DNA from: Candidatus Nomurabacteria bacterium
Lineage (GTDB): Bacteria > Patescibacteriota > Minisyncoccia > Phycocordibacterales > UBA9973
Direction: 5' to 3'
DNA length: 45,582 nucleotides
NCBI GenBank assembly: GCA_026395915.1
Contig: JAPLXU010000014.1
Span: 1 to 45,582 of the forward strand
The notes beneath the pieces were generated by a model. It was given only the letters and a program-made list of their open reading frames with translations. It did no database searches and was not told the origin of the DNA. Of the stretch, positions 4,940 through 45,554 are shown piece by piece. Made by a program: the position numbers and the translations under genes. The first letter of the stretch is position 1, and the number at the start of each line of letters is the position of its first letter.

Positions 4940-6602
4940 GAAATCAGATGAAATTCGGTCAAGATTTTTAAAATTTTTTTCCGCCAGAGGCGGATCCGCC
5001 TTGGGCGGAGAAGGACATAAAATAATTCCTTCAGCTTCGCTTGTTCCCGGGGACCCTTCAGTTTTGTTCACTACTGCCGGTATGCAACAGTTCAAACCGT
5101 ATTATACAAATCCCGGCAATGCGGATAAAGATTTTGGAAGCAGAAATATTGTTACTGTGCAGAAATGTATTCGCACTGGTGACATAGACGAAGTGGGTGA
5201 TGCTACGCATCTGACCTTTTTTGAAATGCTTGGGAATTTTTCATTTGGCGGTTACGGCAGACGTGAAGCTATAACTTATGCTTATGATTTCATCACCAAA
5301 GAGCTCGGATTGAAAATTTCCTATGTGACTGTTTATAAAGGCGAAGGAGTGGTGCCAAAAGATGAGGAATCAAAAAATATTTGGAAAGAACTGGATTCTG
5401 ATCTTGAAATTAGGGAGGACGGCAAGGATGTTTTTTGGGGACCGACGGGGGACTCAGGTCCATGTGGACCGACAACTGAAATTTATTGTAAGAATGCAGA
5501 TGGACAAGATGTGGAAATTTGGAATATAGTTTTTAATGAATATTTTTGCGAAGGTTCTCGAGAAAAACTAGATCGAGGCGAAGCCAATCTAAAAAAATTA
5601 GATATATTAGGTATCGATACTGGTATGGGACTGGAGCGATTGCTCGCGACTGTGCAGAACAAAAAAAGTGTTTACGAAACAGATGTTTTTAATAATGAAA
5701 AAACCAAAGATGAACGAATCATTGCCGATCATATCAAAGCCTCTCTTTTTATAATTGCAGACGGGGTGGAACCTTCGAATACTGGCAGAGGGTATGTATT
5801 GAGAAGATTGATAAGACGAGCCGTCAGATTTTCTAAAGAACCCTTAACAGGACAAATAAAGAAAATAAAAAAAGTTTACAATGGAATGTATGCTCTTGAT
5901 GACAAGGGCGAGATTGAAAGAGAGGAAAATAAATTCAGGGAAACTCTCGAGCGTGGCATGAAAGAATTTGAAAAAGGTATTGATCCATTTGTTCTGGCTA
6001 CAACATATGGTTTTCCGATTGAATTGACGCTAGAACTTTCAAAAGAAAAAAATATCAAAGTCGATCTAGAAGATTTCAATAAAAAAATGGCCGAACATCA
6101 AAAACTTTCACAAACAGCTTCCGCTGGCATGTTCAAGGGTGGGCTCACTGATGCCGGAGAAGAAACAACAAGATTGCATACAGCTACGCATTTATTAAAT
6201 GCCGCGCTTCGGCTCGTGCTCGGCAATCATGTCACGCAGAAGGGAAGCAATATCACCAAAGAGCGTTTGCGTTTTGATTTCACACATCCGCAAAAAATGA
6301 CTGAAGAAGAAAAGAAAAGAGTCGAGGAAATTGTGAATGATAAAATTGCTGAAGAATTGCCTGTTGGTTTTGTGGAAATGCCAAAAATCGAGGCAGAAAA
6401 GATCGCCGTGCATTCTTTTAACGAAAAATACGGCGATATTGTGAAGGTTTATTCGATAGGAGACGAGAAAACTGGGTATTTCAGCAAAGAATTCTGTGGT
6501 GGTCCGCATGTTTCAAACACAAGCGAATTGGGTAAATTTAAAATTTTGAAAGAAGAAGCGGTGGCGCAAGGCGTGAGGCGTATAAAAGCCGTGCTCATAT
6601 AG
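4938..6602 (+). CDS. alaS: Alanyl-tRNA synthetase, short form lacking the C-Ala domain
   Basis: The enzyme charges tRNA-Ala. The N-terminal class II catalytic domain is clear (TTAGMQQFKPYY, GDATHLTFFEMLGNFSFGGYG, WGPTGDSGPCGPTTEIY, GIDTGMGLERLLA). The tRNA-recognition part has NTGRGYVLRRLIRRAVR. The editing domain keeps both zinc-ligand motifs, HTATHLLNAAL and CGGPHVSN. At 554 residues it ends right after the editing domain, while typical bacterial AlaRS are near 870 and have DHHA1/C-Ala; the protein terminates in QGVRRIKAVLI with a normal stop, so this is a natural short form. A 30-bp palindrome (4980-5009) adds SARGGSALGG after the first helix, in place of the usual short FF-KxxGH link. Confidence 0.95.
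   Translation: MKSDEIRSRFLKFFSARGGSALGGEGHKIIPSASLVPGDPSVLFTTAGMQQFKPYYTNPGNADKDFGSRNIVTVQKCIRTGDIDEVGDATHLTFFEMLGNFSFGGYGRREAITYAYDFITKELGLKISYVTVYKGEGVVPKDEESKNIWKELDSDLEIREDGKDVFWGPTGDSGPCGPTTEIYCKNADGQDVEIWNIVFNEYFCEGSREKLDRGEANLKKLDILGIDTGMGLERLLATVQNKKSVYETDVFNNEKTKDERIIADHIKASLFIIADGVEPSNTGRGYVLRRLIRRAVRFSKEPLTGQIKKIKKVYNGMYALDDKGEIEREENKFRETLERGMKEFEKGIDPFVLATTYGFPIELTLELSKEKNIKVDLEDFNKKMAEHQKLSQTASAGMFKGGLTDAGEETTRLHTATHLLNAALRLVLGNHVTQKGSNITKERLRFDFTHPQKMTEEEKKRVEEIVNDKIAEELPVGFVEMPKIEAEKIAVHSFNEKYGDIVKVYSIGDEKTGYFSKEFCGGPHVSNTSELGKFKILKEEAVAQGVRRIKAVLI
4980..5009. repeat. Palindrome family B, copy 1 (in alaS)
   Basis: A 30-bp unit of alternating TCCGCC and GGCGGA hexamers separated by AGA and TTG, exactly ten codons (SARGGSALGG, residues 15-24 of AlaRS). 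Same unit at 26596-26625 and 38140-38169. Confidence 0.92.
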
Positions 6603-44074: not shown

Positions 44075-45022
44075 ATGTCAAAAAAGATATTTTTATCAGG
44101 CGTCCAGCCTTCAGGTAAACCCCATATCGGCAATTATTTCGGAGCAATGAAGCAGTTCGTTGATCTGCAGAATGAATATGACGGCTACGCTTTTATAGCT
44201 GATTATCACGCTTTGCATTCTCTTAGAAATCCAAAAGAAATGAATGAAAATATAAAAAGCGTTTTGCTTGATTATTTAGCGATTGGTCTTGATCCAAAGA
44301 AAGTTACCTTTTTCAAACAAAGCGATATCTCGGAACATACCGAGCTCGCTTGGATTTTTGATACTATCACAACCATGCCATTTTTGATGAGAGCGCATGC
44401 TTTCAAAGATGCGGAAGCGAAAAATAAGGAAATCGATGTGGGTACATTCAATTATCCAGTTTTGATGGCGGCGGATATTTTACTTTATGGTCCGGATGTT
44501 GTGCCTGTGGGCGCTGATCAAAAACAGCACGTGGAGATAGCTCGCGACATTGCGGAAAAATTTAATCATATCTATGGAGAGACTTTTAAATTGCCGGAAC
44601 CTATGATTTTGAAAAATATGGCAATCGTTCCTGGCACAGATGGACGCAAGATGTCCAAGAGCTACGGCAACACGATTCCGCTTTTTGCCGAATACGAAGA
44701 AATAAAAAAAGCTGTGATGAGTATTGTTACTGATTCGGGTGAAGGAATTCCAAAAAATGTCTACGCGATACACAATCTGCTTCGTCCGGCGACCGAACTT
44801 GATCCGATTTACAAAAGCAAGACAGGCAAGTATAAAGAATTGAAAGAATTACTAATAGAAGATTTGGAAAAATTTATAGCGCCACTCCGTGAAAGACGAA
44901 AAGAATTTGAAAAAGATATTCCGAAAGCGTTAGCGATCCTAAAAGCAGGTGGAGAAAAAGCCCAAAAAGTCGCTTCAAAAAAAATGGAAGAAGTGCGTGA
45001 AAAAATTGGGGTTAAATTATAA
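44075..45022 (+). CDS. trpS: Tryptophanyl-tRNA synthetase
   Basis: A class I synthetase of 315 residues. The HIGH-type motif is PSGKPHIGNYFGAMKQFV (about 11-28), ADYHALHS and NYPVLMAADILLYGPDVVPVGADQKQHVE form the active site, and KMSKS is present as GRKMSKSYGNTIPLF. The C-terminal helical anticodon region is complete. The neighbouring promoter shows an extended -10 directly before the ATG. Confidence 0.97.
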   Translation: MSKKIFLSGVQPSGKPHIGNYFGAMKQFVDLQNEYDGYAFIADYHALHSLRNPKEMNENIKSVLLDYLAIGLDPKKVTFFKQSDISEHTELAWIFDTITTMPFLMRAHAFKDAEAKNKEIDVGTFNYPVLMAADILLYGPDVVPVGADQKQHVEIARDIAEKFNHIYGETFKLPEPMILKNMAIVPGTDGRKMSKSYGNTIPLFAEYEEIKKAVMSIVTDSGEGIPKNVYAIHNLLRPATELDPIYKSKTGKYKELKELLIEDLEKFIAPLRERRKEFEKDIPKALAILKAGGEKAQKVASKKMEEVREKIGVKL

Positions 45023-45024
45023 TT

Positions 45025-45052
45025 TTGCATTTTTATGACAAGATGCTACACT
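45025..45052 (+). promoter_or_regulatory. Promoter TTGCAT-N16-TACACT (TGC-extended)
   Basis: The -10 TACACT (45047-45052) with upstream TGC follows immediately after trpS. A GTG codon lies 6 nt after the box, matching the leaderless spacing used elsewhere. Confidence 0.55.
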
Positions 45053-45058
45053 ATGTTC

Positions 45059-45136
45059 GTGAATAAAAACATACAGGCAAATAGTTTCTTCTTTTTCAGC
45101 TTTACTAAATTTAGAAGGCTGATATTTGCGCTGTAA
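45059..45136 (+). CDS. Possible Phe-rich leader peptide
   Basis: Starting at GTG 45059, exactly 6 nt after a -10 box, an ORF of 25 codons contains seven Phe, including SFFFFSF (45083-45103). It is followed 29 nt after its stop by a terminator-like hairpin. This is the layout of an amino-acid attenuator peptide. In A+T-rich DNA, Phe-rich reading frames occur by chance, so this is tentative. Confidence 0.3.
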   Translation: MNKNIQANSFFFFSFTKFRRLIFAL

Positions 45137-45165
45137 AAAATCTCTTAAGAAAAACTTACAACTCA

Positions 45166-45203
45166 AACACCAGCCCTCTAAAGCTGGTGTTTTGTTTAGA
45201 GGG
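45166..45203 (+). promoter_or_regulatory. Terminator hairpin with competing pairing (attenuator-like)
   Basis: AACACCAGC (45166-45174) pairs with GCTGGTGTT (45183-45191), followed by a T-rich tail: an intrinsic terminator. Its loop CCCTCTAAA (45174-45182) is perfectly complementary to TTTAGAGGG (45195-45203), allowing a pseudoknot or an alternative hairpin. Upstream, GGCTG (45117-45121) could pair with CAGCC (45171-45175) as an antiterminator. Confidence 0.55.
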
Positions 45204-45239
45204 TGTGGATTTGTACAAAAATCTAACGAAAGGCAAGTT

Positions 45240-45488
45240 GTGGCAAAAGTAAAAAAGAAAAAACAATCAAAATCGGTAGAACCTCTCAAATTCAAACTTA
45301 TTGGGAAGTTTAAGACTGGACGTGGAGTAGAAATTGAGGAAGGAACAGTGGGTACTGTAATTCCTCATGTCCCTAGAGATTGGGTGGAACCATCCCTGAG
45401 TCCACTACACTGTTGTGTTAGGCTCGCAATTCCATGCAAGCCTGGACAGATCGTGATCTCACGTCAGTTGGTTGTGCCGGCGGTTTAA
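45240..45488 (+). CDS. Hypothetical small basic protein
   Basis: An 82-residue protein from GTG 45240. A Lys-rich N-terminus (AKVKKKKQSK) is followed by a beta-rich part: FKLIGKFKTGRGVEIEEGTVGTVIPHVP, HCCVRLAIPCKPGQIVISRQLVVP. One of the few genes here with a Shine-Dalgarno-like AAAGG 6-8 nt upstream. The longer frame from TTG 45126 would run through the terminator hairpin and is less likely. Codon use is more GC-balanced than in its neighbours. Not recognised; it may be regulated by the upstream leader. Confidence 0.5.
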   Translation: MAKVKKKKQSKSVEPLKFKLIGKFKTGRGVEIEEGTVGTVIPHVPRDWVEPSLSPLHCCVRLAIPCKPGQIVISRQLVVPAV

Positions 45489-45522: not shown

Positions 45523-45554
45523 CGGCGAACGTTCTCCCTTGAGAACGTTCGCCG
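45523..45554 (+). terminator. Perfect 14-bp hairpin after the last gene
   Basis: CGGCGAACGTTCTC / GAGAACGTTCGCCG around CCTT, followed by a pyrimidine-rich ctttctatttct. Probably an intrinsic terminator; as a perfect palindrome it could also be a mobile repeat. Confidence 0.65.

Follow-up and report, generated by a model that had tools for sequence, protein, structure and literature searches.

Positions 45025–45204 of the window, the 45,582-nt stretch of DNA analyzed here, very probably comprise a ribosome-mediated transcription attenuator in which a Phe-rich leader peptide acts as the sensor. The window corresponds to bases 1–45582 of contig C6 (80.6 kb) in an 812-kb genome of Candidatus Nomurabacteria and, as judged by sequence comparison, the region is a conserved element of these bacteria and not a chance product of A+T-rich DNA. 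On the same basis, it belongs to an RNA family of ultrasmall bacteria that as yet has no name; its members share a single RNA frame, with predicted sensor codons that vary along with the gene that follows.

The element follows trpS (44075–45022, named by family match). Its promoter, on the forward strand like all features below, consists of TTGCAT (45025–45030), a 16-nt spacer and an extended -10, TGC-TACACT (45044–45052). This is followed by the predicted leader ORF (45059–45136), which starts with GTG, ends with TAA at 45134–45136 and has 25 codons, MNKNIQANSFFFFSFTKFRRLIFAL*. Seven of these encode Phe, and the four consecutive ones, TTC TTC TTT TTC at 45086–45097 (FFFF), are the putative sensor codons. 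The promoter and the ORF with its Phe run had been proposed in the preliminary description and both are confirmed by the sequence, as are the pairing pieces that it listed: TCAGC (45096–45100), GCTGA (45118–45122), GGCTG (45117–45121), CAGCC (45171–45175), AACACCAGC (45166–45174) and GCTGGTGTT (45183–45191).

TCAGC is segment 1, which pairs with 45118–45122 in minimum-energy folds. The 1:2 stem is longer than was described, as an outer arm, TACAGGCAAATA at 45072–45083, also pairs with 45123–45135. Segment 2 (TAGAAGGCTG, 45112–45121) lies within the leader ORF and has either segment 1 or segment 3 as its partner. Segment 3 (CAGCCCTCTA, 45171–45180) can pair with segment 2, forming the antiterminator, or, via its 5′ part, with segment 4, forming the terminator. 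The 3:4 terminator hairpin (45166–45197) uses AACACCAGC and GCTGGTGTT as its arms and ends in an interrupted U-rich tract, TTTTGTTT (45190–45197), with CACCAGC as the terminator stem. In addition, the 3:4 loop (45174–45182, CCCTCTAAA) is complementary to 45195–45203 (TTTAGAGGG), and this pairing can produce an alternative hairpin or pseudoknot. By eye, a similar second hairpin, employing the 3′ arm of the terminator, can be made out in several further copies. The first gene downstream is an 82-aa ORF with a GTG start (45240–45488); a strong intrinsic terminator found by the terminator scan (45523–45554) closes the unit before aspS, which was named by family match and starts ~30 nt past the window end. 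A generic consensus scan called neither the window promoter nor the 3:4 terminator, because its thresholds are stricter.

BLAST located the element in 33 of 80 same-genus genomes of Candidatus Nomurabacteria, often more than once per genome and sometimes in tandem. The matches mostly cover part of 45045–45215 and mostly occur without the 82-aa gene; 27 of 28 element-bearing stretches belong to records named Candidatus Nomurabacteria or other Paceibacterota/Patescibacteria. From 52 raw same-genus copies, 50 were aligned, leaving out a chance match in a coding gene (L053) and a copy at a contig end (L046). A covariance model, R1, was built from these 50 copies blind to the genes nearby. With a threshold of E ≤ 0.01, it has matches in 69 of the 147 genomes of the family, from 12 of 24 genera; with E ≤ 0.001, it reaches 35 of 397 genomes at the order level, from 22 of 179 genera. 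At the phylum level eight of 379 genomes are matched, including four from outside the order. Because the 2:3 arms are near-palindromic, match counts per genome include some mirror hits on the opposite strand; a leader is lacking in a few matches with low scores. At the order level 20 loci were used; L176–L179, which have no convincing leader, and about ten further listed places fall outside this set, while L155, L159 and L161 repeat earlier places. The readings of leaders and targets given below exclude the four phylum-level matches beyond the order.

All 49 same-genus copies that could be parsed have a predicted leader ORF bounded by a start and a stop codon (the start is probably wrong in L024, and longer than likely in L015 and L023). 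The distance from the -10 hexamer to the start codon is exactly 6 nt in 36 of 48 copies, and no Shine-Dalgarno-like sequence precedes the start in any of 48 same-genus copies or 16 distant leaders. Judging by this spacing and the lack of a ribosome-binding sequence, the leader transcript is probably leaderless, starting at or adjoining the GTG. Ahead of segment 2, a run of at least three equal residues occurs in 24 of the 49 leaders, compared to 4.9 ± 2.0 for shuffled peptides (maximum 12 in 2000 trials). The residue is Phe in 16, Leu in seven, Ser in two and Met in one. Conservation of the Phe run, which had been put forward as a check, thus holds in part: FFF or longer is found in 16 of 49 leaders, while the 33 without it carry LLL, MMM, CC and so on.

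In the relatives found by the RNA alone, the sensor codons match the pathway of the gene behind them. Leaders with FFFF accompany a PheRS-like gene (first in L154, second in L153), prephenate dehydratase (L142, L143) and DAHP synthase (L160, 446.9 bits), and an FFYFYPLY leader occurs with aroA (L139). Similarly, PVPP or similar leaders are found with proB (L114) and proC (L146, L148, L151 and, more weakly, L127), HH before hisG (L162), VVV before valS (L157), III..III before citramalate synthase (L174) and a Met-rich leader before a SAM hydroxide adenosyltransferase-like gene (L175), which is the second gene in L132. Scores of the PheRS-like and prephenate dehydratase genes fall short of the NCBIfam cut-offs, with Pfam PDT above its cut-off in L143 and below it in the L142 fragment; the valS of L157 is cut by the locus end and also scores below cut-off.

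The match between residue and gene was evaluated by label permutation over the 12 loci with a gene assignable to a named family, including these genes with sub-cut-off scores (an earlier version had 16), and none of 200000 permutations reached the observed value. With eight less redundant loci 31 of 200000 did so, and with one locus per amino acid 310 of 200000, which is about the best possible with six. Outside the 12 are three loci with Pro leaders and proB or proC-like genes (L114, L126, L127), and L139 (aroA), L131, L168, L007 and L132, whose leaders do not test a single residue or whose named gene comes second. Met targets labelled by eye in L171 and L172 were not confirmed by Pfam and are likewise outside the test. 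There are also misfits: an FFFF leader before a small ORF and then alaS (L168), an FFF leader before a gene that by eye is aminotransferase-like (L007), the small-protein loci of one genus whose leaders contain Phe and mostly Trp (L115, L116, L122, L125, L129, L134, L136), and the window copy, whose first gene is an orphan.

These data bear on a broader explanation, namely that the element senses any slowing of a ribosome on a leaderless transcript, so that the runs of Phe, Leu, Cys and Met are hydrophobic or U-rich filler. It would account for the variation of residues among same-genus copies of one architecture, and for the first genes of that genus being mostly orphan small ORFs. However, equal-residue runs exceed those of shuffled peptides and, in the relatives, the residue follows the pathway, and a general sensor is therefore unlikely.

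Several features of these loci are described here in their own right. The PheRS-like gene (1619–2812 in L154 and 1980–3098 in L153; genomes G441 and G461) encodes a single chain with a PheT-like C-terminus, and its best NCBIfam match, below cut-off, is 'PheS-related mystery ligase'. The two genomes yielded no full-length pheT, and mainly its C-terminal part is present. Trp, Tyr or His leaders precede homologous proteins of 373–436 aa in L156, L163 and L170 (L156 is 45% identical to L163 and 30% to L170; no Pfam match for L163 or L170). Related small proteins lie behind aromatic-rich leaders in L115, L116, L119, L122, L129 and L145, with Trp in all of these leaders except that of L119, and several of the proteins have a GHSAN...CxCG...H pattern. 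Finally, leaders with Cys pairs or several Cys occur in L024, L025, L043, L045, L048 and L051, and behind all six a small ORF starting with Met-Cys can be read by eye, although other starts are possible.

The end of the leader peptide raises a second alternative. Leaders with stall motifs are known and, in arrest leaders such as MsrDL and ErmCL, a short hydrophobic end lies near the stop codon. The window leader shares such an end, RRLIFAL*. As with erm or msrD type leaders, a small molecule or an antibiotic could cause this end to arrest the ribosome on the stop codon. A similar end, with the stop at +21 relative to segment 2, is found in 35 of 49 same-genus leaders. In contrast, the remaining 14 are read in other frames, with stops at +7 (10 copies), -1 (two) and -3 (two) and ends of LEG*, LEV*, LED*, IEG*, FI*, LI* or LSLK*, and leaders in other genera end in VAGFCV* or LKVDFC*. 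The stops thus use all three frames while always remaining within -3 to +21 of segment 2, and it follows that what is conserved is the RNA and not the peptide, whose end arises as a by-product. At the RNA level, the conservation is explained by segment 2 together with the outer 1:2 arm. Unlike in MsrDL and ErmCL, the C-terminal residues are not preserved at the peptide level; an arrest mechanism built on the RRLIFAL end was consequently dropped, given three reading frames on the same RNA, and is very unlikely.

The attenuator reading requires two exclusive helices, and both of them covary over the 50 same-genus copies. In the window, helix 2:3 joins 45113–45121 to 45171–45179 and helix 3:4 joins 45166–45174 to 45183–45191; they are mutually exclusive because both use bases 45171–45174. 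In the 50-copy alignment, 93.3% of the cells of helix 2:3 are paired, compared to 89.1 ± 0.5 in shuffles, with 19 doubly changed cells versus 5.9 ± 1.7. For helix 3:4 the values are 84.1% versus 79.1 ± 0.6 and 22 versus 4.8 ± 2.1. None of 500 shuffles matched either helix on paired or doubly changed cells, and slid versions of the helices were 26–56% paired. One pair of helix 2:3, columns 19:84, is missing in 12 of the 50 copies. As for the third helix, the minimum-energy structure of the leader ORF is the 1:2 hairpin. Compared to dinucleotide shuffles, the leader region has a mean z of -2.0 in 48 copies, with 39 below -1 and the window copy at -3.5. The conservation of exclusive pairings in relatives, which the preliminary description had named as a check, is hence borne out for 2:3 and 3:4.

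R1 includes helix 2:3 and not 3:4, and because of this, counts of 2:3 in distant R1 matches would be biased. The 3:4 region has a mean z of -4.8 in 58 more distant copies, a set that leaves out L113 and L152, two of 40 lower-scoring family matches, here and in the terminator counts. A terminator rule was applied that asks for a stem of at least 6, at least 4 G-C and at least 5 T in 8. It is satisfied in 38 of 50 same-genus copies (0.2 expected) and 50 of 58 more distant ones (0.1 expected). The window copy passes this rule and fails the stricter one of the generic scan, and the earlier claim of a terminator hairpin after the ORF is upheld. Counting T residues after the fold end was given up in favor of the rule, as the folds overran the terminator and were uninformative.

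It could be argued that the hairpin is a constitutive terminator or an mRNA-stability structure with no switch, or that the whole is a repeat or mobile element. There are several matches per genome, some in tandem (counts that include mirror hits), and the ORF behind the element turns over rapidly. Covariation of two exclusive helices argues against this, as does the finding that no copy occurs in viral contigs, phages or plasmids, and the idea is highly improbable. Chance in A+T-rich DNA, which had been raised as a real alternative and to which the U-rich region and Phe run might lend themselves, has a negligible probability given the presence of the element in 33 of 80 genomes, its conservation across species and the shuffling controls beaten by both the helices and the leader folding.

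A CRISPR array of 26 repeats was observed at 5914–7757 of L065 (JALHNX010000047.1, titled as a Pyrinomonadaceae MAG). Its terminal spacer (34 nt), which adjoins a degenerate repeat, agrees with the attenuator core at 28 of 28 positions in the window and in many Nomurabacteria copies, and at best at 30 of 31; the other 23 spacers have no clear match among the collected loci. Given that viral contigs, phages and plasmids contain no copy of the element, the spacer seems to reflect immunity of an acidobacterium to chromosomal DNA of Patescibacteria. Alternatively, the presence of the array in this MAG may reflect misbinning.

The genes behind the element are a different matter from its form. The preliminary description had likened it to the pheL/pheM leaders, and this holds for the 1:2/2:3/3:4 arrangement, the Phe run and the relatives before Phe genes; it does not hold for the presumed target, which in the window is an orphan ORF. 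The refuting case named there, downstream genes unrelated to Phe or translation, applies to the first gene, the 82-aa ORF, whose product has no match in Pfam or NCBIfam; it is followed by the strong terminator and then aspS. In the 147 genomes of the family, the 82-aa protein has a single homologue (G014, 51%), and differences between the two ORFs by codon position are 16/11/24 over 38 codons. The pheS and pheT of the window genome are on contig C14, not behind the attenuator, and inspection by eye of the 300 nt upstream of pheS revealed no such leader. All 12 same-genus copies that precede aspS (recognized by eye, and HMM-named only in the genome of the window) keep at least two Phe ahead of segment 2.

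Throughout the genus, first genes behind the element are mostly orphan small ORFs with fast turnover. A regulon of a single small-protein family was rejected, as most first ORFs were unrelated in an all-against-all comparison. The small groups that did emerge are the window with L006; L005, L019, L022 and L026; L021 with L153; and L115, L116, L119, L122, L129 and L145. The ORF picker used here favored starts with Shine-Dalgarno-like sequences, and for some copies, the window's included, chose internal starts or other frames. Among the 50 same-genus copies, 16 have a further motif, TTGTTCTTT, 45–175 nt past the leader stop, compared to 1.0% of background windows; it often adjoins a Shine-Dalgarno sequence. 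It resembles a boxA, an idea that was set aside since the window copy lacks the motif and the 16S leader of G000 has only similar, not identical, sequences.

From this layout, we infer ribosome stalling and the direction of the response, as follows. Transcription would start at or adjoining the GTG, and a ribosome would load onto the leaderless 5′ end. When charged tRNA-Phe is plentiful, the ribosome would reach the stop codon and cover segment 2, so that the 3:4 terminator (45166–45197) forms and the 82-aa gene, by its position the presumed target, is not transcribed. When tRNA-Phe is short, the ribosome would stall on FFFF over segment 1, leaving segment 2 free to pair with segment 3, which would block the terminator and allow the gene to be read. 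With no ribosome, the 1:2 hairpin would form and 3:4 could follow. That Phe is the signal of the window copy is likely, on account of its own FFFF run and its close relatives. The most likely general role of the 82-aa protein would be to help a genome-reduced cell that lives by scavenging respond when Phe or aromatic amino acids run short.

The pheL and pheM leaders are Phe-rich leader attenuators. With pheL-pheA and pheM-pheST (Rfam Phe_leader), the element shares a Phe-rich leader ORF, exclusive 1:2/2:3/3:4 pairings and an intrinsic terminator, and relatives of its RNA likewise precede PheRS-like and prephenate dehydratase genes. It differs in its predicted leaderless start and orphan 82-aa first gene, and in an RNA frame that also serves Pro, Met, His, Val and Ile leaders. 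The window scored 18.9 bits (E 1.6) against Phe_leader RF01859, whose cut-off is 55; no Rfam family reached its cut-off in the window, and only tRNAs did so in 20 loci of relatives. A leaderless leader peptide is known from trpL of Sinorhizobium, which has its start codon at the transcription start, as is predicted here; the present element belongs to another phylum, has another sequence and represents a whole family with several specificities. In the trp/his-type model, regulatory codons lie in region I and II:III competes with III:IV (PMC1183508), an arrangement shared with the window. What differs here is one conserved scaffold with exchanged codons and a leader without a Shine-Dalgarno sequence. 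Leader-peptide attenuation was reported for Proteobacteria and Actinobacteria, then Firmicutes, according to PMC2965389, and among the titles and abstract openings listed by literature searches there was no described case in Patescibacteria. The mechanism is already known, and the novelty lies in the phylum, the family-wide leaderless start, a scaffold shared by leaders with exchanged codons, and targets that are orphans.

To our knowledge, almost nothing is known of gene regulation in Patescibacteria. Leader codons would offer a direct, testable readout of the amino acid to which each orphan small gene answers, in organisms that are hard to culture, and a swappable scaffold would be a natural series for studying how sensor specificity changes. 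Taken as a whole, it is a tentative proposal, somewhat short of even odds, that a homologous leaderless scaffold has been repeatedly retuned in Patescibacteria by swaps of sensor codons only (Phe, Pro, Met, His, Val, Ile and perhaps Leu, Cys and Trp), and that in Nomurabacteria it became detached from biosynthesis genes and now controls fast-changing small proteins, each answering a shortage of a single host-derived amino acid. If true, this would amount to a riboregulatory network for nutrient sensing in cells with almost no amino acid synthesis of their own.
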